Positions 31,316 through 44,470 of a stretch of 47,601 nt of DNA are shown here, in pieces. The notes beneath the pieces are model-generated. The model was given only the letters and a program-made list of their open reading frames with translations, was not told the DNA's origin and searched no databases. The translations under genes were made by a program, and so were the position numbers. Origin of the DNA: Acetobacteraceae bacterium (GTDB lineage: Bacteria; Pseudomonadota; Alphaproteobacteria; Acetobacterales; Acetobacteraceae). Location: the NCBI GenBank assembly GCA_027487675.1, contig JAIYDD010000229.1, positions 1-47,601 on the forward strand, written 5' to 3'. Numbering within the stretch: the first letter of the stretch is position 1; every line of letters starts with the position of its first letter.

Positions 31316-32443
31316 CTACTCCGCGGCCATCGCCGGCGCCACCAGCGCGCAGCGGCAGAGCGCCGCGATCCGCGCCGCCGCCTGGCCATCGCCGAAGGGG
31401 GACCCGCCGCGCGTCATCCGCGCGGCCTCCGCCGGGTCGTCGAGCAGCGCGGACGCGGCGGCCACGATCCGCCGCCGGTCCGTGCCGACCAGGCGCGCGA
31501 CGCCGGCTTCCACCGCCTCCGGCCGTTCCGTCTCCTCCCGCAGCACCAGAACCGGGCGGCCGAGGGCGGGCGCTTCCTCCTGCACCCCGCCGCTGTCGGT
31601 CAGCACGAGCGAGGCGCGCAGCAGCAGCCCGACGAAGCGGTCGTAATCCGCGGGCGGGACGAGGTGCACGCGGTCCAGCCCGCCGAGCAGCGGCCGCACC
31701 ACCGCCGCCACCCGGGGGTTGGGGTGCACCGGCCAGGCGAATTCCACATCCGGGAAGCGCGCGTGCAGGTCGAGCACGGCGCGGGAGATGGCGCGCAGCT
31801 TCTCGCCCAGCGTCTCCCGACGATGCGCCGTCACCAGCACCAGGCGGCGGCCCGGCGCGATCGGCAGGTCGCAGGCGGGTTGCTGGCGCGCCACCGCCAG
31901 CAGCGCGTCGATCACCGTGTTGCCGGTGACATGGATCGCCGAGGGAGCCACGCCCTCGCGCAGCAGGTTGTCGCGCGCGCCGGCGGTCGGGGCGAAGTGC
32001 AGCGCGCTCGCCAGGCTGGCGATGCGGCGGTTCATCTCCTCCGGGAAGGGGCGGTCGATGTCATGGGTGCGCAGGCCGGCCTCGACATGGCCGACCGGGA
32101 TGCGCCGGCAGAAGCCCGCCATGGCGCCGGCCATGACGGAGGTGGTGTCGCCCTGCACCAGGATCATGTCCTGCGGGGCCGCCGCCAGATAGGCATCGAG
32201 CCGCGCCAGCACGCGCGCCGCCAGCCCGGCGAGGCTCTGGTCCGGCTGCATCACGTCCAGGTCCACGTCGAGGTCGATGCCGAACAGCGACAGCGCCTGC
32301 CGCGCCATGTCCCGGTGCTGCCCGGTGCCGAGCACCGTCACCCGCGCGAAGCCCGCGGCGCGCAACGCCAGCACCACCGGGGCCATCTTGATCGCCTCGG
32401 GCCGCGTGCCGATCAGGCAGAGGATGCGGCGCGGCCCGGCCAT
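31316..32443 (-). CDS. wecB: UDP-N-acetylglucosamine 2-epimerase (non-hydrolysing)
   Basis: 375 residues, two Rossmann domains of the GT-B-like fold. It interconverts UDP-GlcNAc and UDP-ManNAc for surface polysaccharides. Signatures are GTRPEAIKMAPVV at the N-terminus, QGDTTS, GHVEAGLRT, RPFPEEMNR, the TDSGGVQEEA nucleotide-binding loop, REETERPEAVEAG and GDGQAAARI. No glycan cluster surrounds it in the window. The 149-bp region upstream of the ATG is AT-richer than its surroundings and likely holds the promoter. Confidence 0.93.
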   Translation of the reverse strand: MAGPRRILCLIGTRPEAIKMAPVVLALRAAGFARVTVLGTGQHRDMARQALSLFGIDLDVDLDVMQPDQSLAGLAARVLARLDAYLAAAPQDMILVQGDTTSVMAGAMAGFCRRIPVGHVEAGLRTHDIDRPFPEEMNRRIASLASALHFAPTAGARDNLLREGVAPSAIHVTGNTVIDALLAVARQQPACDLPIAPGRRLVLVTAHRRETLGEKLRAISRAVLDLHARFPDVEFAWPVHPNPRVAAVVRPLLGGLDRVHLVPPADYDRFVGLLLRASLVLTDSGGVQEEAPALGRPVLVLREETERPEAVEAGVARLVGTDRRRIVAAASALLDDPAEAARMTRGGSPFGDGQAAARIAALCRCALVAPAMAAE

Positions 32444-32892: not shown

Positions 32893-35247
32893 CTATTCGG
32901 CGGCGCGCGACGCCGGCGCCGGGTCCGGCGCGTGGCTGCGCGGACGTGCCTTCAGGCGCAGCTCCCGCAGATCGGCCTGGTCGCGCGCGGCGTTGCGCAT
33001 CAGCGCATCCTTGCCCCAGAGGTATTGCGGCGGGCAGGCGATGTCCTTGACGCCGTATTGCGCCGCGGCCTGCATGGCGAAGAAGGGGTTCGTCAGGTGC
33101 GGCCGCGCCAGGGCCACAAGATCCGCGCGGCCGGCGGCGAGGATGGTGTTGGCCTGGTCGGCGGTGGTGATGTTGCCGACGCACATGGTGGCGATGCCGG
33201 CCTCGTTGCGGATCATGTCGGACCAGGGCACCTGGAACATGCGGCCATAGACCGGCTCCGCATCGTGCACGGTCTGGCCGGTGGAGACGTCGAGCAGGTC
33301 CGCGCCCTCGGCCGCGAAGGCGCGGGCGATGGCGATGCAGTCGTCTTCCGAAAGCCCGCCCGCCTTCCAGTCGGTGGCGGAGATGCGGACCGACATCGGG
33401 CGGTCGGCGGGCCAGGCGGCGCGCATGGCGCGGAACACTTCGAGCGGGAAGCGCAGGCGGTTCGCGACGCTGCCGCCATATTCGTCGGCGCGGATGTTGG
33501 TCAGCGGCGAGAGGAAGCTGGCCAGCAGGTAGCCATGGGCGCAGTGCAGCTCCAGCATGTCGAACCCGCAGTCGACGGCGCGGCGCGTGGCGGCGACGAA
33601 ATCCTCGCGCACCGCATCCATGTCGGCGCGCGTCATCTCGCGCGGCACCTGGCTTTGCGTGAAATAGGGGATCGGGCTGGCGGAGACGATCGGCCAGCCG
33701 CCGTCTTCCAGCGGCTGGTCGATGCCGTCCCACATCAGCTTCGTCGCACCCTTGCGCCCGGCATGGCCGAGCTGCAGGCAAAGCTTCGCCGCCGAATGGC
33801 GATGCGCGAAGTCCACGATGCGCGTCCATGCCGCCTGCTGCGCGTCGTTCCACAGGCCGGTGCAGCCGCGCGTGATGCGGCTGTCCGGGGAGATGCAGGT
33901 CATCTCGGTGAAGACCAGCCCCGCCCCGCCCAGGGCGCGGGAGGTGTAGTGCTGGAAGTGGAAATCGCCGGGCACGCCCTCCTCGGCCGAATACATGTCC
34001 ATCGGCGAGACGACGATGCGGTTCGCGAGCTGCATGCCGCGCAGGGCGAAGGGCTGGAACAAAGGCGGCTTCCGGGGCGAGGCCGGCAGGCCCTTCGCCT
34101 GCGCGTCGGCGGCGAAGACCTGCTGGGTTTCCTGCACGAAGCCCGGCGCGCGCAGCGCGAGGTTGTCCCAGGTGATGGCCTTCGACCGCGTCATCACGCC
34201 GAAGGCGAAGCGCGTCGGGTCGAAATGCCAGAAGCGCTTCACATGCTCGAACCAGACCAGCGAGACATCGGCCGCGTGCTGCGTCTTCTCCACATCCTCG
34301 CGGCGCGCGGTCTCGAAGCGCGTGAGGCATGCGGCGACGTCGCCGCCGGCCTGGAAGGCCTGGTGAAGGGCGATCGCGTCCTCCATCGCCAGCTTGGTGC
34401 CGGAGCCGATGGAGAAATGCGCGCTGGCCTTGGCATCGCCGAGCAGCACGACATTGCCGCGCGTCCAGCGCGCGCAGCGGATCATCGGGAAGCGGCGCCA
34501 CAGGCTGCGGTTGGTGATCAGCCGGTGGCCTTGCAGATCCTCGGCGAAGACGGATTCGAGGAAGCGCGCGCTGTCCTCCTCGCCCATCGAAGCCAGGCCG
34601 GCGCGGGCAAAGGTCTCGGGGTCGGTTTCCAGCACCCAGGTGCTGGCGCCAGCCTCGTACTGGTAGGCATGCGCGATGAAGATGCCTTCCGGGCGTTCGC
34701 GGAAGCAGAAGGTGAAGGCATCCAGCGGCCGCGTGCTGCCCATCCAGGCGAAGCGGTTGGGGCGCAGGTCGGTCTCAGGCTGGAAGTGGTCGCGCCAGCG
34801 CTCGCGGATGGGGGAGTTGATGCCGTCGGCCGCGACGATCAGGTCGGCGTCGGGGAAGTCCTCCGGCTGGGCTTCGCGGCGGAATTCGAGTTCCACGCCC
34901 AGCGCCCGCGCCCGGTCCTGCAGCAGCATCAGCAGCGTGCGGCGCGAACACCCACAAAAACCGTTGCCGCCGATGCGGTGGCGGCCCTGTTCGGCGCCAT
35001 CCACGCCGCGGCGGATGATCTCGATGTCGTCCCAATAGGCGAAGCTGCGCGCGATGGCGCGGTAGGAAGGCTCGTCCGCGGCCTTGAAGGCGTCCAGCGT
35101 CGCGTCGCTGAACACCACGCCGAAGCCGAAGGTGTCGTCCGGGCGGTTGCGCTCCACCACCGTGATGCGCGCGCCGGGGTGGTCCCGCTTCATCAGGATG
35201 GCGAAATAGAGCCCCGCCGGGCCGCCGCCGATCACCGCGATGCGCAT
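32893..35247 (-). CDS. Fused aromatic-CoA monooxygenase / Old Yellow Enzyme reductase (2-aminobenzoyl-CoA monooxygenase/reductase type)
   Basis: 784 residues with two flavin domains. Residues 1 to about 390 form a group A FAD monooxygenase: dinucleotide motif GGGPAG at 7-12 and the [22 protein letters not shown] motif. From about 395 to 760 is an Old Yellow Enzyme-type FMN barrel ([58 protein letters not shown]). The same fusion is known as 2-aminobenzoyl-CoA monooxygenase/reductase in Azoarcus evansii, which hydroxylates and reduces the aromatic ring of 2-aminobenzoyl-CoA. Related proteins are annotated as bifunctional salicylyl-CoA 5-hydroxylase/oxidoreductase, so salicylate is an alternative substrate. 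It is divergent from the operon holding the matching CoA ligase. The ATG at 35247 has GGGGTG upstream. Confidence 0.9.
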
Positions 35248-35369
35248 GCTTCGCACCCCCTGTCCAAGGCCGGATTAGTTTAGGCTTCAAAGATTGGTCC
35301 GTCCACCGGATTGCAAGGTTGCGCCGGGGCCGAGCGATGCTTTAAGCATGAAGCAATTGCGGAGGCGGG
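35248..35369. promoter_or_regulatory. Divergent control region of the aromatic-CoA cluster, with candidate MarR operator
   Basis: 122 bases between the start codons of the flavoprotein gene (minus) and the SDR gene (plus). It is AT-richer than both genes. ATGCTTTAAGCAT (35337-35349) is a near-perfect inverted repeat with a single central base. GCAATTGC (35353-35360) is a perfect palindrome ending at the GGAGG of the SDR gene. The operon encodes a MarR protein, a family that binds such short palindromes and often responds to aromatic acyl-CoA. No -35/-10 pair was identified with confidence. Confidence 0.45.
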
Positions 35370-36104
35370 ATGGCGGACGGGACGCTCAGCGGGCAGGCGG
35401 CGCTGGTCACCGGCGGCGGCAGCGGCATCGGCGCCGCCTGCGCGGCCGCGCTGACCCGGGCCGGCGCCCATGTGACCGTGATGGGACGGCGGGAGGCGCC
35501 GCTGGCCGCCATGGTCGCGCGCGGGGATGCCGCGGCGTGGCTTGCGGGCGACGTCACCGCGCCCCCTGCCCTGCCGCGCGTGGCGCTGCTGGTGCATGCC
35601 GCCGGCGCGGCCGAGAGCGCGCCTTTCCTGGCCAGCGACGACGCGCTGTTCGAGCGGATGTGGCGCGTGAACCTGATGGGCGCGGTGGCCGTCACGCGCG
35701 CGGTGCTGCCGGGGATGCTGGAGGCGGGGTTCGGGCGCGTGGTGCACATCGCCTCCACCGCCGCGCTGAAAGGCTACCCTTACGTCAGCGCCTATGTCGC
35801 GGCGAAGCACGGGCTGCTGGGCTTCACCCGCGCGCTGGCGCTGGAAGTGGCGCGCAAGGGCGTCACCGTGAACGCCGTCTGCCCCGGCTTCACGGACACG
35901 GAGATCGTCGCCGAGAGCGTGGCGCGCGTGGTCGCCAAGACCGGCCGCAGCGAGGCCGAGGCGCGGGCGGAATTCACGAAGCACAACCCGCAGGGCCGCC
36001 TGGTGCGGCCGGAGGAAGTGGCCGCCGCCGCGCTGATGCTGTGCGGGCCGGGCGCGGCCGCGATCAACGGCCAGGCGATCGCGGTGGATGGGGGCGAGAC
36101 ATGA
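35370..36104 (+). CDS. SDR-family 3-hydroxyacyl-CoA dehydrogenase-like enzyme
   Basis: 244 residues, classical short-chain dehydrogenase. The NAD(P) motif TGGGSGIG is at 14-21, N101 in VNLMG, S129 in HIASTAA, Y142 and K146 in YVSAYVAAKHG. In the aerobic 2-aminobenzoyl-CoA route a 3-hydroxyacyl-CoA dehydrogenase acts on the ring-derived thioester; this is the natural candidate. GGAGG lies five bases before the ATG. First gene of the nine-gene operon; its stop overlaps the marR-type start as ATGA. Confidence 0.88.
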   Translation: MADGTLSGQAALVTGGGSGIGAACAAALTRAGAHVTVMGRREAPLAAMVARGDAAAWLAGDVTAPPALPRVALLVHAAGAAESAPFLASDDALFERMWRVNLMGAVAVTRAVLPGMLEAGFGRVVHIASTAALKGYPYVSAYVAAKHGLLGFTRALALEVARKGVTVNAVCPGFTDTEIVAESVARVVAKTGRSEAEARAEFTKHNPQGRLVRPEEVAAAALMLCGPGAAAINGQAIAVDGGET

Positions 36105-36628
36105 CGCCGCCGGACGACATCGTCCCGATTACCGTGGACGCCGAGACGGCGCTGGCCCATGCGCCGCCCGGCCACAAGGATGAGCTGCGCCTGTGGCTGC
36201 GGCTGCTGACCTGCACGACGCTGATGGAAGGCGAGATCCGCGCGCGGCTGCGGCGCGACTTCGACACCACCCTGCCGCGCTTCGACCTGATGGCGGCGCT
36301 GGACCGCGCGCCGCAGGGCATGACGCTCGGCGAGGTCTCGCGCCGGATGATGGTCAGCAACGGCAACGTGACGGGGCTGGCGGCGCGCCTGGAATCGGAA
36401 GGGCTGGTGGAACGCCGCGCCATGCCGGGCGACCGCCGCGCGCAGCTGCTGCGCCTGACCGCGCGCGGCCGGCGCGAATTCGCGCGGCAATCGGCGGCGC
36501 ATGAAGGCTGGATCGCGGAGCTGCTGGGCGGGCTCGATCCGGCGGAGCGTGCGCAGCTGTTCCGGCTGCTCGGCCGCGCCAAGGCGGGCGTGCGCGCCGC
36601 GCTGGCGCCGGAGGGGGAGACGGCATGA
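36101..36628 (+). CDS. MarR-family transcriptional regulator
   Basis: 175 residues. The winged helix-turn-helix core is clear: [68 protein letters not shown]. The DRRAQ wing carries the usual DNA-contacting Asp-Arg. It lies as the second gene of the operon it probably represses, overlapping both neighbours by ATGA, so it is autoregulated if its operator is in the divergent region upstream. The ligand is presumably the aromatic acid or its CoA ester. Confidence 0.92.
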
Positions 36629-37452
36629 TCACCGCCATCACAGGGCCGCTCGGCGCGTATCGCGCGCAGCACCTGAAGCTGGAGGTCGCGGGCGGGGTCG
36701 CGACGCTGACGCTCGACAGGCCCGAGCGCAAGAACCCGCTCACCTTCGACAGCTATGCCGAGATGGCGGCCATCCTGCGCGCGGCGGTGCATGACGACAG
36801 CGTGCGCGCCTTCGTCGTCACGGGATCGGGCGGGAATTTCTGCTCGGGCGGCGATGTGCACGAGATCATCGGGCCGCTGCTCGACCGCGACACCAAGGGG
36901 CTGATGCAGTTCACGTCCATGACCGGGGAGCTGGTGAAGGCGATGCGCGCCTGCCCGCAACCCATCATCGGCGCAGTGGATGGCGTGGCGGCCGGCGCGG
37001 GCGCCATCGTCGCGATGGCGTCCGACCTCAGGCTCGGCACGCCGCGCGCCAAGGTGGCCTTCCTGTTCAACCGCGTCGGGCTGGCGGGCTGCGACATGGG
37101 GGCGTGTGCGATCCTGCCGCGCATCGTGGGCCAGGGGCGCGCTTCGGAACTGCTCTATCTCGGCCGCAGCCTCGGCGGGGAGGAAGGCCTGGCCTGGGGC
37201 TTCTTCAACCGGCTGCACGCGCCGGAAGAGTTGCAGGACGCGGCCGCGGCGCTGGCGCGGGAGATCGCGGAAGGCCCCGGCTTCGCCCATGCGATGACCA
37301 AGCGGATGCTGCAGATGGAATGGGCCATGTCGATGGACCAGGCCATCGAGGCGGAGGCGGTGGCGCAGGCGCTCTGCATGACCACGCAGGACTTCCGCCG
37401 CGCCTACGACGCCTTCGTGGCGAAGCGGCGCCCCGTCTTCGAGGGCAATTGA
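36625..37452 (+). CDS. Enoyl-CoA hydratase/isomerase family protein
   Basis: 275 residues, crotonase fold. The CoA-binding strand [17 protein letters not shown] and oxyanion segments [12 protein letters not shown] and [19 protein letters not shown] are present. The classical catalytic glutamate pair is not obvious: the segment reads [21 protein letters not shown], as in the crotonase subgroup with a GxDMG motif. It would hydrate or hydrolyse the ring-derived cyclohexene-carboxyl-CoA intermediate. Coupled by ATGA to the regulator; the dehydrogenase gene follows two bases after its stop. Confidence 0.88.
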
Positions 37453-37454
37453 CC

Positions 37455-38642
37455 ATGCCCGACACGTCCTTCCTCGACTGGCCCTTCTTCGAACCCCACC
37501 ACCGCGACTGGGCGCGGGAGGTGGAGGAATGGGCCACCGCGCAGGCCGAGGCGCTGGCCGACGAGCACGACGCCGACGCCAGCACGATCCGCCTGGCCCG
37601 CGCGATGGGCGAGGCCGGGCTGCTGCGCGTGCCCTGCCCCGCCGATGGCAGGCTCGACGTGCGGTCGCTCTGCATCGCGCGCGACATACTGGCGCGGCAT
37701 GCGGGGCTCGCGGATTTCGCCTTCGCCATGCAGGGGCTGGGCACCGGGCCGGTCACGCTGTTCGGCACGGCCGCGCAGCGCGACGCCGTGCTGCCCGGCG
37801 CGCGCGCGGGGACGGCGCTGGCGGCCTTCGCGCTGTCCGAGCCCGAGGCGGGCAGCGATGTCTCGGCGCTGGCCACCGTCGCGGAGCGCGACGGCAACCG
37901 CCATTACCGCCTGACCGGCCGCAAGACCTGGATCAGCAATGGCGGCATCGCCGCGACCTACATCGTCTTCGCGCGCACCGGCGAAGCGCCGGGCGCCAAG
38001 GGCCTCTCGGCCTTCCTGGTGCCGGCCGAGACGCCGGGGCTTTCCGTCGAAGCCCGCATCGACGTGACCGCGCCGCATCCGCTGGCGACGCTCGGCTTCG
38101 ACGCGGCGCGCATCCCGGCGGATGCCATGCTTGGCAAGCCGGGCGAGGGTTTCAAGGTGGCGATGGCGACGCTCGACGTGTTCCGCGCCACCGTCGGCGC
38201 CGCGGCGCTCGGCTTCGCCCGCCGCGCGCTGGACCTGACGGTGGACCGCGCGACACAGAGGAAGCTGTTCGGCGCGACGCTGTTCGACCAGCAGATGTCG
38301 CAGGCGGCCATCGCCGACAGCGCCACCGATGTGGAAGCCGCGGCGCTGCTGGTCTATCGCGCCGCCTGGCTCAAGGATGCCGGCACGCCGCGCGTGACGC
38401 GCGAAGCCTCCATGGCCAAGCTCTTCGCGACCGAGGCCGCGCAGCGCGCCGCCGATCGTGCGGTGCAGATCCATGGCGGGCTCGGCGTGACGCGGGGCCA
38501 CAAGGCCGAGGAGCTCTACCGGGAAGTCCGGGCGCTGCGCGTCTATGAAGGCGCCTCGGAGGTCCAGCGCGTGGTGATCGCCCGCGCCGAGCGCGAGAAG
38601 CGCCAGGACCAGGAACACGCAGGTCGCACACCGGGCACATGA
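37455..38642 (+). CDS. Acyl-CoA dehydrogenase
   Basis: 395 residues, full-length flavoprotein. FAD/substrate motifs are [15 protein letters not shown] and [12 protein letters not shown] in the middle domain, [32 protein letters not shown] near the end, and the catalytic base E365 in YEGASE. It would oxidise the alicyclic acyl-CoA formed from the aromatic ring. The stop overlaps the ligase start as ATGA (38639-38642). Confidence 0.92.
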
Positions 38643-40285
38643 CACGGGAGAGCGGCATGGACGGCATGATCGGCGGCGCGGCCAGCGCCCATCAGGACAG
38701 CTTCGCGCGCGACAATCTGCCGCCGCGCGCGGATTGGCCGGTCTTCCTGCTCGACCGGCCGGACTACCGCTATCCGCCGCGGCTGAACTGCGCGGTGGAG
38801 CTGCTCGACCGCAACATCGAACGCGGCCGCGGCGACCACCCCGCCCTCGTGACGCCGGCGGAGACGCTCACCTACCGGCAGCTCGCCGCGCGCGTGAACC
38901 GCATCGCGAACGTGCTGGTGCATCGGCTGGGTATGGTGCCCGGCAACCGGGTGCTGCTGCGCAGCGCCAACAATGCCTGGATGGTCGCGGCCTATTTCGC
39001 GGTGCTGAAGGCGGGCGGCGTCGTCGTCGCCACCATGCCGCTGCTGCGCGCCAAGGAACTCGGCCAGATGTTTTCCAAGGCGCGCATCACGCATGCCTTC
39101 TGCGACGCGCGCCTGGCGGACGAAGCGCGCAAGGCCAATGCCCCCGATCTGCGCCACCTGGTCACCTGGGGCGATGGCGCGCTGGAGGCGATGTGCGCCG
39201 CTGCGTCGGCCGAGTTCGACGCCTGCGACACCGCGGCGGATGATGTCTGCCTGATCGGCTTCACCTCCGGCTCCACCGGCGAGCCGAAGGGCACGCTGCA
39301 TTTCCACCGTGACATGCTGGCGATCTGCGACGGCTACGGCATGCAGGTGCTGCGCCCCGAGCCCACCGATGTGTTCATCGGATCGCCGCCGCTGGCCTTC
39401 ACCTTCGGGCTCGGCGGGCTGGTGCTGTTCCCGTTCCGCGTGGGTGCGACCGCCGTGCTGCTGGAGAAGGCGCCGCCCGAGGAACTGCCGGCCGCGATCG
39501 AACGCCATCGCGCGACGGTCTGCTTCACCGCGCCCACGGCGTATCGCGTGATGGCGGGGCTTGCCGCGCAGCACGACCTGTCCTCCTTGCGCAAATGCGT
39601 CTCCGCCGGCGAAGCCCTGCCGAAGCCGGTCTTCGAGGCATGGCAGGCGGCGACAGGCCTCAAGCTGATGGACGGCATCGGCGCGACCGAGATGCTCCAC
39701 ATCTTCATCGCCGCGCGCGAGGACCAGATCCGCCCCGGCGCCACCGGCCTGCCCGTGCCGGGCTACGTCGCGAAGGTCGTGGACGAGCACGGCACGGAGG
39801 TGCCGCGCGGCACGCCCGGGCGGCTGGCGGTGCAGGGCCCCACGGGCTGCCGCTACCTCGCCGATCCGCGCCAGGCGCAATACGTGCAGCATGGCTGGAA
39901 CATCACCGGCGACACCTATGTCCAGGACGAGGACGGCTATTTCTGGTACCAGGCGCGCAACGACGACATGATCATCTCGGCCGGCTACAACATCGCCGGG
40001 CCGGAGGTGGAAGCGGCGCTGCTGTCGCATCCCGCCGTGCGCGAGTGCGGCGTGGTCGGCGCGCCGGATGCGGAACGCGGCATGGTGGTGCGCGCCTATG
40101 TCGTGCTGCATCAGGGCCAGGCGGCGGACGGCGCCACGGCGAAGGTGCTGCAGGACCACGTGAAGCGCGAGATCGCGCCCTACAAGTATCCGCGCAGCGT
40201 CGTCTTCGTGGAGACGCTGCCGCGCACGGAAACCGGCAAGCTGCAGCGCTTCGCGCTTCGGAAGCGCGCCGGCGAGGAACCCTGA
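38639..40285 (+). CDS. 2-aminobenzoate/benzoate-type CoA ligase
   Basis: 548 residues, ANL superfamily. P-loop [10 protein letters not shown] at 209-218, [11 protein letters not shown] motif, hinge region [22 protein letters not shown] and catalytic K534 in [10 protein letters not shown]. The N-terminal block ([32 protein letters not shown]) and the ATEMLHIF string are those of the benzoate/2-aminobenzoate-CoA ligase group. It activates the aromatic acid with ATP and CoA, producing the substrate of the divergent flavoprotein. An ATG is shared with the preceding stop. A TGATG joins it to the RidA-like gene. Confidence 0.9.
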
Positions 40286-40686
40286 TGCCCGACATCCTGA
40301 CCGCGCTGCACCCCGAAGGCTGGCCCGCGCCGCGCGGCTATTCCAACGCGATGATGGGGCGCGGGCGCCTCGTGCTGGTCGGCGGCCAGGTGGGCTGGGA
40401 CGCGGAGGGGCACTTCCCCGCCGGCTTCGTGCCGCAGGTGCGCCAGGTGCTGCGCAACATCCTGGCCGTGCTGGCGGCTGGCGGCGCCGGGCCGCAGCAT
40501 GTCGCGCGGCTGACCTGGTATGTCGTCGACATGGACGAATACCGGTCCAGCCTGAAGGAACTCGGCCCGGCGTATCGCGAGGTGATGGGCAAGCACTTCC
40601 CCGCGATGGCGCTGGTGCAGGTGGTCTCGCTTGTCGAGCCCGAAGCGCGGGTCGAGATCGAGGCGACCGCCATCATCCCGGACTGA
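40285..40686 (+). CDS. RidA-family protein lacking the usual catalytic arginine
   Basis: 133 residues, YjgF/YER057c/UK114 fold. The family C-terminal VEIEATAII is intact. In E. coli RidA the segment FPARSCVEVARL carries R105, which holds the imino acid carboxylate; here it reads FPAMALVQVVSL, so that arginine is replaced. The protein therefore belongs to a Rid subgroup without R105 and may act on a thioester enamine or bind a ligand rather than deaminate free imino acids. Its place right after the CoA ligase suggests a role on the 2-amino-cyclohexene-carboxyl-CoA intermediate, whose amino group must be released. Confidence 0.85.
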   Translation: MPDILTALHPEGWPAPRGYSNAMMGRGRLVLVGGQVGWDAEGHFPAGFVPQVRQVLRNILAVLAAGGAGPQHVARLTWYVVDMDEYRSSLKELGPAYREVMGKHFPAMALVQVVSLVEPEARVEIEATAIIPD

Positions 40687-40729
40687 CCGCGGCCGCCGGG
40701 GCCGCGTTGCAAGAACAGGAGAGACAACC

Positions 40730-41722
40730 GTGACCAGCATCGCCCTGCCCCGCCGCGGCGCGCTTGCCGCGCTGGCGGTCCTCGCCGCGCCGCGCCTCGT
40801 CCAGGCGCAGCCGCGCCCGGCGGTGGACCGCACCGCGCGGATGATCGTCGGCTACCCGCCGGGCGGCCCGACCGACACCATCGCGCGCCTGGTCGCCGAA
40901 AGGCTGCGCGGCAGCTACGCGCCGCAGGTGATCGTGGAGAACCGCCCCGGTGCCGCCGGGCGCCTCGGCGTGGAAGCCGCCAAGGCCGCGGCACCGGACG
41001 GCACGACGCTGCTGATGACGCCAGCGACCGTGATGACGATCTTCCCGCATGTCTATCCGCGCACCACGCGCTACGACGCGCTGGCGGATTTCGTGCCGGT
41101 CAGCCCGGTCTGCGCCTCGCCCTATGCCTTCGCCGTGCGCGCGGACCATCCGGCGCGCGACATCGCGGGCTTCGCAGCCTGGGCGCGCACGCAACGCGAC
41201 GGCGCACATTTCGGCAGCCCCGCCGCCGGCGCCGGCCCGCATTTCGTGGGCGAGAAGCTGGCGCGCAACCTCGGCGTCAGGCTGACCCATGTGCCCTATC
41301 GCGGCACCGCGCCGCTGCTCCAGGACGCGCTGGCCGGCCAGGTGCCGGCGATCTGCCTGCAGGTGGGCGACGCGGCGGAACTGCACCGTGGCGGCCAGCT
41401 GCGCATCCTCGGCGTCACCGCGGAAGCGCGCCTGCCCACGCTGCCCGACGTGCCGGTCTTCGCCGAACTCGGCCAGCCCGACATGACCGGCGAGGAATGG
41501 TTCGGCATCCTTCTGCCCGCGCGCACGCCGCAGCCGATCGTCGAAGGGCTGCACGCCGCGATCCTGTCGGCCACCGCGACGCCGGAACTGCGTGACGCAC
41601 TGGCGCGGCAGATGTTCCGCATCTTCACCACCACGCCCGCCGCCTTCGCCGAGCTGATCCGCACAGAGCGCGCGGCCTGGGCGCCGGTTGTCCGCGCCTC
41701 CGGCTTCACCGCGGACGAATAG
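40730..41722 (+). CDS. Tripartite tricarboxylate transporter (TctC/Bug) substrate-binding protein
   Basis: 330 residues from a GTG start with AGGAGAG seven bases upstream. The signal sequence MTSIALPRRGALAALAVLAAPRLVQAQ exports it to the periplasm. The Bug motifs VGYPPGGPTDTIARLVAERL, VENRPGAAG and THVPYRGTAPLLQDALAGQV are clear. No TctA or TctB membrane partner is in the window, so it must share a transporter encoded elsewhere or act as a sensor. Its place in the cluster suggests binding of the aromatic or dicarboxylic substrate. Confidence 0.9.
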   Translation: MTSIALPRRGALAALAVLAAPRLVQAQPRPAVDRTARMIVGYPPGGPTDTIARLVAERLRGSYAPQVIVENRPGAAGRLGVEAAKAAAPDGTTLLMTPATVMTIFPHVYPRTTRYDALADFVPVSPVCASPYAFAVRADHPARDIAGFAAWARTQRDGAHFGSPAAGAGPHFVGEKLARNLGVRLTHVPYRGTAPLLQDALAGQVPAICLQVGDAAELHRGGQLRILGVTAEARLPTLPDVPVFAELGQPDMTGEEWFGILLPARTPQPIVEGLHAAILSATATPELRDALARQMFRIFTTTPAAFAELIRTERAAWAPVVRASGFTADE

Positions 41723-41732
41723 GCGCCACGCC

Positions 41733-42941
41733 ATGACGCAGCCCGCGGAGATCCCCTATGGCAGCTGGTGGTGCACGCCCTTCGCGAAGTGGCAGGGCGG
41801 CCTCTCGCACCTGCATGCGCTGAAGTTCGCGGCGGCGACGGCGCGCGCGGCGCTCGACAGGATCGGCCTGCCGGCGGAGGCGATCGATCTCGGCGTGCTC
41901 GGCACCACCGTGCCGCAGGAAGCGTCCTTCTACGGGCTGCCATGGCTCACCGGCATGATGGGGCTGCCGGGCGTCGCGGGGCCGACGGTGGCGCAGGCCT
42001 GCGCCACCTCCGCGCGCTGCCTGTCGCTGGCCGCCGGCGCGGTGGCGACCGGGGAGGCGCGCTGCGTGCTGGTGGTGGCGGCCGACCGCACCTCCAACGG
42101 GCCGCATCTCTACCACCCGGATCCGCACGGGCCGGGCGGGACGGGGGCGAAGGAGGATTGGGTGCTCGACAACTTCGGGCGCGACCCCTTCGCGGATGCG
42201 GCGATGGTGCAGACGGCCGAGAACGTCGCGCGGCGCTACGACATCGGCACCGCGGAGCAGCACGCGATGGTGCTGCTGCGCGATGCGCAGTACCGCAGCG
42301 CCCTGGCGCATGACCACGCCTTCCAGCGCCGCTACATGACGCTGCCCTTCCGCGTGCCCGGCCCGCGCGGCAAGGGCGAGGTGGTGCTGGCGGGCGACGA
42401 GGGCGTCACCGCCTCCACCGCGGAAGGTCTGGGGCGGCTGCGCCCCGTGCTGCCCGGCGGCACCGTCACCTTTGGCGGCCAGACGCATCCGGCGGATGGC
42501 AATGCGGGGTTGCTGGTGGCGGATGCGGCGCGCGCGGCGGAGCTTTCGCGCGACCGCGCCATCCGCGTGCGCCTCCTCGGCTTCGGCCAGGCGCGCGTCG
42601 AGCCCGGGCACATGCCGATGGCACCCGTGCCCGCGGCGCGTCGCGCGCTGGACGCCGCGGGAATCGGGATCTGTGACGTGGACGCCGTCACCACGCACAA
42701 CCCCTTCGCGGTGAACGACATCGTCTTCGTGCGCGACACCGGCTTTCCGGCCGGGCGCATGAACCAGCGCGGATGCTCGCTGATCTGGGGGCATCCGCAG
42801 GGCCCGACCGGGCTGCGCGCGACGATCGAGCTGATCGAGACGCTCGCCGAACGCGGCGGCGGCATCGGCCTCTTCGCCGGCTGCGCCGCCGGCGACACCG
42901 GCATGGCGCTGGTGCTGCGCGTCGAGGATGCGCGCCGATGA
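41733..42941 (+). CDS. Thiolase-family protein
   Basis: 402 residues. The acyl-accepting cysteine is C90 in VAQACATSARC. H354 in IWGHPQGPTG and C384 in AGCAAGDTGMA are the other catalytic residues. The usual NEAF block is HNPF (H322), a variant seen in divergent thiolases. It could perform the last thiolytic cleavage of the ring-opened product, or condense acyl-CoA units. It lies 11 bp after the binding-protein gene, and its stop overlaps the second synthetase start as ATGA. Confidence 0.88.
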   Translation: MTQPAEIPYGSWWCTPFAKWQGGLSHLHALKFAAATARAALDRIGLPAEAIDLGVLGTTVPQEASFYGLPWLTGMMGLPGVAGPTVAQACATSARCLSLAAGAVATGEARCVLVVAADRTSNGPHLYHPDPHGPGGTGAKEDWVLDNFGRDPFADAAMVQTAENVARRYDIGTAEQHAMVLLRDAQYRSALAHDHAFQRRYMTLPFRVPGPRGKGEVVLAGDEGVTASTAEGLGRLRPVLPGGTVTFGGQTHPADGNAGLLVADAARAAELSRDRAIRVRLLGFGQARVEPGHMPMAPVPAARRALDAAGIGICDVDAVTTHNPFAVNDIVFVRDTGFPAGRMNQRGCSLIWGHPQGPTGLRATIELIETLAERGGGIGLFAGCAAGDTGMALVLRVEDARR

Positions 42942-44470
42942 CGCCCGCGATGCCGGCCATCCACCCGACCGTCGTGCACATGCTGGCCGCGGCGGCGGAG
43001 GCCGCGCCCGACCATGACGCGCTGGTCTGCGGCGCGGAGCGGCTGAGCTACGCGGCGTATGCGCGCTGCGTCGCCGCCTTCGCGCGGGAACTGGTGGCGA
43101 TGGGCGCGCGCGGCGAACGCGTGGCCGTGGTGCTCGGCAATTCGCCGGACATCGCCATCGCGACCTTCGCCGCCCATGCCGCGGGCGCGCAATGCGTCGC
43201 GCTGAACCCGGCCTACACGCGGCACGAGCTGGCGCCGATCCTGGCGGATGCCGCGCCGCGCATCGCGGTCGTGGAGGCCGGTGGCACGGCCGACGACGCG
43301 GCGCTGCTGGACGGTGCCGGCCTGCGCCACGTGGTGCGCGTCGGCGCCGGCGCGCGGCGCCTGACCGCGTGGCGAGACACATCGCTGCCCGGCCTGACAC
43401 CGGACCTTCTGCCCGACCCCGACGCGCTGGCGACGCTGCAATTCACCGGCGGCACAACCGGCCGGTCGAAGGGCGTGGAGCTGACGCACCGCGCCGTCAG
43501 CACCAACATCGCGCAGCGGGAGGCGCTGCTGCCCACGCGCCCGGGCGCGGAACGCGTGCTGTCGGTTGCACCGCTCTACCACGTCTATGCGGTCGCGATG
43601 GGGCTGCACCTGGCGGCCCATGCGCGTTCCACGCTCGTCATCATGCCGCGCTACCGTGCCGACGACCTGCTCGCGCTGCTGGAGGCGGAGCGCATCACCC
43701 TCTTCGCCGGCAACCCGACGCTGTTCACCGGGCTGATGGCGTCACCGCGCTTCGCCACGCTCGACGCACCGTCGCTTCGCCTTTGCTATTCAGGTTCCGC
43801 CGCGCTGCCGGAAGCGACGCTTCGCGCCTTCGAAGCCGCAACCGGCGTGCCGATCTGCGAAGGCTATGGCCAGACAGAGGCCGGGCCGGTGCTGACCTAC
43901 AACCCTGCCGAGGGCCTGCGCAAACCCGGGAGCGTCGGCATCCCCCTGCCGCTGACCGAGGTGCAGGTGGTGGACATCGAAACCGGCACGCGCGTGCTGC
44001 CGCCAGGCGAGGCCGGGCAGATCCGCGCCCGCGGCCCGCAGATCATGTCCGGCTATCGCGGCCTGCCGGCCGAGACCGAGGCGGCGCTGCGCGATGGCTG
44101 GCTCTGGACCGGCGATGTCGGCGTCTTCGACGCCGACGGCTACCTGACGATCCGCGACCGGCTGAAGGAGATGATCATCTCCGGCGGCTTCAACGTCTAT
44201 CCGCGCGAGGTGGAAGAGGTGCTGCACCGCCACCCCGACGTGCTGGAAGCCGCGGTCTATGGCCGCCCCGACGCCTACCGTGGCGAGGCGGCGGAGGCGG
44301 TGGTGGCGCTGCGCGCGGGCGCGGCTGCCTCGGCCGAGGAACTGCTGGCGCATCTCCGCGACCATCTGGCGCGCTACAAGGTTCCGGCGGCGCTGCATGT
44401 CGTGGACAGGCTGCCGCGCACCGCGATCGGCAAGGTGGACAAGCTGGCGCTCAGGCGCCGCGGCGGCTGA
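42938..44470 (+). CDS. Second AMP-forming acyl-CoA synthetase
   Basis: 510 residues, ANL superfamily. P-loop TGGTTGRSKG at 170-179, YGQTEAGPVLTYNP, WLWTGDVGVFDADGYLTIRDRLKEMIISGGFNVYPREVEEVL and catalytic K499 in RTAIGKVDKLAL. The sequence is closer to medium/long-chain or general fatty acid-CoA ligases than to the first ligase of the cluster, so it likely activates a different acid, for example a ring-cleavage product or a related side-chain acid. Last gene of the operon. Confidence 0.9.
   Translation: MTPAMPAIHPTVVHMLAAAAEAAPDHDALVCGAERLSYAAYARCVAAFARELVAMGARGERVAVVLGNSPDIAIATFAAHAAGAQCVALNPAYTRHELAPILADAAPRIAVVEAGGTADDAALLDGAGLRHVVRVGAGARRLTAWRDTSLPGLTPDLLPDPDALATLQFTGGTTGRSKGVELTHRAVSTNIAQREALLPTRPGAERVLSVAPLYHVYAVAMGLHLAAHARSTLVIMPRYRADDLLALLEAERITLFAGNPTLFTGLMASPRFATLDAPSLRLCYSGSAALPEATLRAFEAATGVPICEGYGQTEAGPVLTYNPAEGLRKPGSVGIPLPLTEVQVVDIETGTRVLPPGEAGQIRARGPQIMSGYRGLPAETEAALRDGWLWTGDVGVFDADGYLTIRDRLKEMIISGGFNVYPREVEEVLHRHPDVLEAAVYGRPDAYRGEAAEAVVALRAGAAASAEELLAHLRDHLARYKVPAALHVVDRLPRTAIGKVDKLALRRRGG

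Follow-up and report, generated by a model that had tools for sequence, protein, structure and literature searches.

A probable MarR-controlled gene cluster for aerobic anthranilate degradation via CoA thioesters in an Acetobacteraceae genome

The cluster and its closest described relatives

Anthranilate (2-aminobenzoate) is a breakdown product of tryptophan, and the ligase and monooxygenase/reductase reactions of its aerobic degradation via CoA thioesters are established in the literature for relatives of the enzymes described here. The Azoarcus evansii cluster of Schuhle et al. (2001) reportedly comprises a ligase, a fused monooxygenase/reductase and three beta-oxidation-type enzymes, and the 2001 abstract is said to add a MarR-like regulator, a substrate-binding protein and an L-PSP ('translation inhibitor') protein. 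To our knowledge, the late steps of this 2-aminobenzoyl-CoA pathway have not been assigned to enzymes. The window, a stretch of 47,601 nucleotides from an Acetobacteraceae bacterium (contig JAIYDD010000229.1), holds at positions 32893 to 44470 ten genes that are best read as a MarR-controlled cluster of the A. evansii type for aerobic anthranilate degradation via CoA thioesters, with a probability of about 0.78. A passage of a review on indole calls a 2-aminobenzoyl-CoA cluster vital for anthranilate degradation, with genetic and proteomic proof (PMC6221969). In Arthrobacter sp. Rue61a, an actinobacterial host whose anthranilate-CoA genes are likened to the window by description and not by alignment, two ligases are active with anthranilate in Escherichia coli extracts, and the strain grows on anthranilate, not on salicylate, according to the sections consulted (PMC3534580).

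All ten genes are uninterrupted open reading frames (ORFs) with the expected domains, as judged by ORF calls and a domain search. A gene for a fused FAD monooxygenase (FMO) and Old Yellow Enzyme (OYE)-type reductase of the 2-aminobenzoyl-CoA monooxygenase/reductase type (32893..35256, minus strand; PF01494 and PF00724; NF006101) diverges from nine co-directional plus-strand genes, and its start may be the ATG at 35247 instead of the GTG at 35256. The plus-strand run opens with a short-chain dehydrogenase/reductase (SDR; 35370..36104; PF13561/PF00106) and the probable regulator of the cluster, a MarR protein (36101..36628; PF12802/PF01047). These are followed by a crotonase (ECH) of the PRK08258 type (36625..37452; NF006107, 458 bits against a cutoff of 330), an acyl-CoA dehydrogenase (ACAD; 37455..38642; PF00441, PF02770, PF02771), an aryl-CoA ligase termed ligase 1 (38639..40285; TIGR02262) and a Rid (L-PSP) protein (40285..40686; PF01042), and the run closes with a Bug/TctC binding protein, a thiolase and a second ligase. 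Adjacent plus-strand genes overlap by 1-4 bases or are separated by 2-43 bases. The overlap measures 4 bases at SDR/MarR, MarR/ECH, ACAD/ligase 1 and thiolase/ligase 2 and one base (TGATG) at ligase 1/Rid, so that cotranscription is plausible. The ten genes and positions given in the preliminary description agree with the ORFs, the domains and the synteny in relatives, and its family assignments are borne out by the Pfam and NCBIfam domains.

In the proposed pathway, anthranilate may come from tryptophan via kynurenine, and ligase 1 would convert it to 2-aminobenzoyl-CoA. The FMO half would hydroxylate the ring, and the OYE half would reduce the product to 2-amino-5-oxocyclohex-1-ene-carbonyl-CoA. 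Rid would free the amino group, with SDR, crotonase and ACAD taking charge of ring opening and beta-oxidation. For this organism we infer each reaction, the order of the late steps and the role of Rid. In its reported gene content, the A. evansii cluster resembles the window in its one-chain FMO-OYE, its ligase, its SDR/crotonase/ACAD set and its MarR, L-PSP and binding proteins; the window differs in adding a thiolase and a second ligase and in carrying its binding protein in a non-conserved tail. The cluster's own MarR regulator and Bug protein had been put forward as notable. As the A. evansii cluster reportedly already has both, as well as L-PSP, none of the three is distinctive. The A. 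evansii locus is absent among the best 80 of 588 fused-gene matches. The cluster is supported as a further example of an already known pathway type, its last three genes not being counted in it, and its most interesting part is the Rid protein.

The arrangement recurs in relatives. Stretches were taken from 40 other genomes of the order with a full-length fused gene, and genes within 15 kb of it are counted as near. SDR and Rid are near in 36 loci each, MarR in 32, ligase 1 and ECH in 25 each and ACAD in 20, at identity thresholds chosen by the authors, so that some absences may be under-detection. In the four loci without Rid (L033, L068, L071, L072) the stretches end within a few kb. The full order SDR-MarR-ECH-ACAD-ligase 1-Rid is kept in five congener loci (L034-L036, L038, L039), two of which have a thioesterase-like gene before Rid. 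Separately, a 4HBT_2-type thioesterase, not present in the window, is seen near Rid in 11 of the 40 same-family loci (e.g. L041:7196-7666). When only loci with 9 kb or more on each side are counted (65, drawn from all groups), ECH and ACAD are each present in 62, Rid in 58, ligase 1 in 52, MarR in 48 and SDR in 42. Because synteny is conserved in related genomes, the combination of FMO-OYE with the SDR-to-Rid genes is not due to chance.

Fused flavoprotein, ligase 1 and the probable substrate

Both domains of the fused protein lie on one chain, PF01494 spanning residues 5-301 and PF00724 residues 399-732. Four residues of the OYE half hardly vary across 128 sequences: His571, His574, Tyr576 and Tyr422, which correspond to catalytic positions in enzymes of the YqjM type. 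The gene is common in the order, not rare: at E 1e-100 it is found in 44 of 250 genomes (41 at full length, own genome included, and three with the OYE half only), and all 14 other same-genus genomes examined carry it. On plasmids, 95 records match at least 80% of the protein, with 50-53% identity in the 30 matches listed. A quick tree with 128 rows groups the window with genomes of the same family in a clade of 37 rows (SH-aLRT 100); 36 of the 125 inner branches are open, and the long row L084 joins this clade doubtfully.

Ligase 1 passes the benzoate-CoA-ligase family TIGR02262 narrowly (384 bits against a cutoff of 375). Its best solved relative is 4wv3, deposited as an anthranilate-CoA ligase (339 bits), with benzoate-CoA ligases at 258-266 bits, and by this kinship it is probably a 2-aminobenzoate-CoA ligase. 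On a Streptomyces plasmid (L086), a 59% homologue of ligase 1 lies one gene from anthranilate synthase component I. The same region (L086:9821-15572) also has paaABCD-like genes nearby and looks biosynthetic.

Two operator-like sites occupy the region between the divergent genes, at 35275..35294 (37.3 bits) and 35337..35356 (25.8 bits), and the next best place in the window outside this region scores 0.9. The operator core was chosen by eye from an alignment, and the scoring matrix, built from 43 sites, includes the first site and not the second. Of 31 divergent regions, own region included, 26 have one or more sites with up to two mismatches. The pattern TTTARGCWTSAA, derived partly from the window sites themselves, has two matches in the window against 0.05 expected, and in the whole genome (5.18 Mb, 288 contigs) the window pair is its only exact match. 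With one mismatch, the genome gives six matches and a reversed control seven, which leaves the exact pair as the sole informative result. The MarR protein of the cluster is predicted to bind these sites. Two relatives, L044 and L046, carry an additional site (34.3 and 27.4 bits) in the space separating divergent genes for a KYNU_C protein and tryptophan 2,3-dioxygenase (TDO).

Neighbouring genes were scored in 127 loci: the 40 of the order, 7 from plasmids and 80 from genome contigs. The last set is the best 80 of 588 confirmed matches and is biased towards Betaproteobacteria, since the query's first row came from that group. The 40 order loci contain TDO in 2, a KYNU_C-type gene in 2, isatin hydrolase in 7, and 2-oxoacid oxidoreductase (IOR) alpha-like and beta-like genes in 7 and 8. 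The plasmid loci contain TDO in 2 and an IOR alpha-like gene in 1, with neither isatin hydrolase nor a gentisate-dioxygenase-like gene in any of the seven. The best 80 of the 588 contain TDO in 5, isatin hydrolase in 2, IOR alpha-like genes in 4 and gentisate-dioxygenase-like genes in 2 (L103, partial, 35%; L150, 40%). In total, TDO is found in 9 of 127 loci and isatin hydrolase and/or IOR in 15, and the window's clade in the quick tree holds two TDO loci and five isatin/IOR loci. TDO also adjoins the fused gene in Rhodococcus. The isatin hydrolase call rests on an E value of 4e-107 to the solved isatin hydrolase A. The 'kynureninase-like' label of the KYNU_C protein rests on Pfam, and no kynureninase match appears in NCBIfam at E 1e-5; the query KYNB_ab is an alpha/beta hydrolase whose role was guessed from its neighbour, and its weak matches were left unused. 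The own genome has a TDO gene on contig C71 with a KYNU_C gene adjacent; its best match to anthranilate dioxygenase, at 104 bits, falls short of the cutoff of 672. Across the 41 genomes with the fused gene, TDO exceeds its cutoff in 18 and gentisate dioxygenase in 15; the fused gene has TDO nearby in 2 of them and gentisate dioxygenase in none. This comparative context favours a link of the fused family to anthraniloyl-CoA derived from tryptophan, from isatin-type precursors or from free anthranilate.

The isatin-type loci have a feature of their own. Twelve of the 15 are without a ligase 1 homologue in the stretch examined (only 3.4 kb in L068). Since isatinate is a 2-oxoacid, an enzyme of the IOR type could convert it directly to anthraniloyl-CoA; no report of this step appeared among the literature search results examined. 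IOR-like genes, mostly together with isatin hydrolase, adjoin the fused gene in L060, L064-L066, L069, L070 and the Azospirillum locus L032, again with no ligase 1 homologue in the stretch. A ligase-free entry from isatinate to anthraniloyl-CoA is possible in those IOR loci. For the iad auxin loci, the available part of one paper describes a route via isatin to anthranilate with IOR genes (PMC9613470), and a 2025 preprint, in the portion available, revises this route (PMC12633357).

Unfused homologues provide a contrast. Plasmid matches to the FMO half number 180 records, of which 50 were listed; six loci were opened by label, not at random, and two more besides. Five of the six (L190-L193, L195) are without the OYE half, their ligases are only 27-36% like ligase 1, and no Rid, ECH or ACAD match and one partial SDR match (L192) were found in them. 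L193 (Agrobacterium vitis) has a gentisate-dioxygenase-like protein (34%), a maleylpyruvate-isomerase-type gene, FAH and maiA, and L192 (Phaeobacter) has FAH and maiA genes. These two loci, which combine an unfused FMO with a CoA ligase and a thioesterase and which we take to be salicylyl-CoA 5-hydroxylase-like and linked to SdgC, share with the window a homologous FMO half (39-40%, tblastn) and an adjoining gene of the benzoate-CoA-ligase family; they differ in having no OYE half, a ligase 33-36% like ligase 1 and no Rid, ECH or ACAD match. In L195 (7001-9742, Rhizobium beringeri plasmid), one annotated ORF contains both an FMO of the unfused type and a part resembling benzoate-CoA ligase. 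The sixth locus, on a Haladaptatus plasmid (L194:6387-15086), encodes an FMO-OYE-like protein (41% match over 722 aa) with a ligase (44%), an LLM-class oxidoreductase, Rid, ACAD, MaoC, SDR and ECH as neighbours.

Gene content, ligase similarity, the neighbours of relatives, the shared operator motif and the unfused contrast together favour anthranilate over salicylate as the likely substrate, in agreement with the preliminary description, which had proposed an anthranilate-type CoA pathway with salicylate as its rival. Several observations weigh on the other side. A second anthranilate-CoA ligase, 5oe3, scores 157 bits with ligase 1, under the benzoate ligases; most of the 127 loci lack both TDO and isatin/IOR genes in the neighbourhood; and the own TDO/KYNU_C pair on C71 has no operator-like site of at least 5 bits. 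In Paraburkholderia ferrariae (L150:5761-13451), IOR alpha/beta-like genes, a thioesterase, FMO-OYE and a gentisate-dioxygenase-like gene stand in a row, with no match to SDR, ECH, ACAD or Rid; this locus is perhaps a variant ending in oxygenolytic ring cleavage. The fused protein passes NF006101, named "salicylyl-CoA 5-hydroxylase/oxidoreductase" in NCBIfam (1102 bits against a cutoff of 1078), and among the 30 listed plasmid matches this name is given to 13 of the 14 that carry an annotation; the name of the model does not test the substrate. A gentisate dioxygenase gene is present in the own genome, on contig C216, and its product scores 505 bits (cutoff 442). The strongest published point for salicylate is the growth of Cupriavidus metallidurans CH34, which has predicted abm genes and, in the part of the study consulted, grows well on salicylate and not on anthranilate, its authors finding no known salicylate pathway (PMC8879955).

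These last three points would suit a salicylate route, in which ligase 1 would form salicylyl-CoA, the flavoprotein would hydroxylate it at C5, and degradation would continue through gentisate by means of the dioxygenase on C216. This route is judged improbable. It leads one to expect a gentisate-dioxygenase-like gene beside the fused gene, and there is none in any of the 40 order loci; it has no need of the OYE half, Rid or the beta-oxidation genes; and the unfused homologues with gentisate-type neighbours are accompanied by the distant ligases of L192 and L193. Another rival reading is that enzymes of the window's clade act in truth on a substituted anthranilate or on some other ortho-substituted benzoate. 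Thirty-three diagnostic positions, 26 of them at or before residue 370, set the clade apart from the other 91 rows, a point against plain anthranilate, and its stem branch measures 0.42 in the quick tree. Plain anthraniloyl-CoA is indicated by the TDO/KYNU_C and isatin hydrolase/IOR neighbours present in this same clade, and a different substrate of this kind is considered highly improbable.

The Rid protein

Alignment to RidA-type chains places a Met in the window Rid at the position of the RidA Arg105. The substitution is invariant: Met occupies this position in the window and in all 104 loci with a Rid match at E <1e-3 (23 further fused-gene loci are without a match, many of them incomplete), even in the L131 match of only 31% identity. 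The residue is Met in the Rhodococcus Rid and Leu in the Haladaptatus Rid (L194). With columns matched to E. coli numbers by this alignment, the Glu120-equivalent is kept in 103 of 103 readable matches and the Tyr17-equivalent is Tyr in 104 of 104 rows. The window Rid therefore shares with the RidA imine deaminases its Pfam family, the Tyr and the Glu120-equivalent, and differs in having Met where RidA has the carboxylate-binding Arg.

The consulted text of one study reports that Arg105 of RidA binds the substrate carboxylate and that its change to Ala nearly abolishes activity, that the Rid4-Rid7 groups are without this Arg (Trp in Rid4 and Rid7, variable in Rid5 and Rid6), and that replacing the Tyr or the Glu by Ala has little effect (PMC4433059). 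The window Rid may serve specifically to deaminate a cyclic enamine bound to CoA, either 2-amino-5-oxocyclohex-1-ene-carbonyl-CoA or its reduced form; this is a tentative reading, held at less than even odds. The carboxylate of such a substrate would be a thioester, which would account for an Arg replaced by an invariant Met with Glu and Tyr retained. By the published Arg criterion the protein should not be a deaminase, and the little effect of Ala at Tyr or Glu in RidA also counts against this function.

The non-conserved tail and the meaning of the cluster

The last three genes, coding for the Bug/TctC binding protein (40730..41722; PF03401), the thiolase (41733..42941; PF00108/PF02803) and ligase 2, an AMP-forming acyl-CoA ligase (42938..44470; PF00501), lie outside the conserved unit. 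Among the congener loci read, this block (40730-44470) follows Rid only in the window. Neither the thiolase at E 1e-80 nor ligase 2 at E 1e-120 (up to 25 candidates scored per genome) is found in the 14 other same-genus genomes, and no Bug homologue of at least 45% identity occurs in the 40 order loci. The window ORF 3' of ligase 2, presumably isocitrate-dehydrogenase-like, has a counterpart with a similar start in L034 and L035, where it is the first conserved large ORF past Rid. Gain of the three genes in this genome is the simplest reading. Base composition does not point to recent transfer, as their G+C content (0.73-0.74) falls within the span covered by the other seven genes (0.70-0.76). 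The nine-gene operon claimed earlier thus stands as nine co-directional genes and not as one conserved unit, because Bug, thiolase and ligase 2 are absent there in congener loci.

The tail is on the same strand, 43 bases past Rid, and all three other genomes with the thiolase also carry FMO-OYE (in fragments in G274), so the three genes could serve the pathway, for example by supplying anthraniloyl-CoA from an aroylacetate. Their absence from this place in congeners speaks against such a role, and no FMO-OYE was found in 19 thiolase or ligase-2 loci, several of them short contigs; the thiolase and ligase 2 are left as unlikely feeders of the pathway. Ligase-2-like genes adjoin the thiolase in L204 and L205 (53%), in L180 (34%) and, by eye, in L181. 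In L204 and L205 a thiolase and ligase-2-like pair (56% and 53%) stands behind genes that by eye resemble molybdenum hydroxylase subunits. Three ORFs of L060, L061 and L069, chosen by size, have no match to the window proteins, a weak negative in that at least two do not look thiolase-like; the roles of IadG and IadF in the auxin pathway, with which the thiolase-ligase 2 pair was compared, are taken from the accessible part of PMC12633357. Downstream of the fused gene, the minus-strand ORF at 31316-32443 is by eye UDP-N-acetylglucosamine 2-epimerase-like.

In conclusion, the automatic name salicylyl-CoA 5-hydroxylase/oxidoreductase is probably misleading for the fused flavoprotein, and the invariant Arg-less Rid is a concrete candidate for one late step of the pathway. 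If its proposed function is true, the nitrogen-release step of the 2-aminobenzoyl-CoA pathway would be assigned and an Arg-less group of enamine-hydrolysing Rid proteins would be defined.

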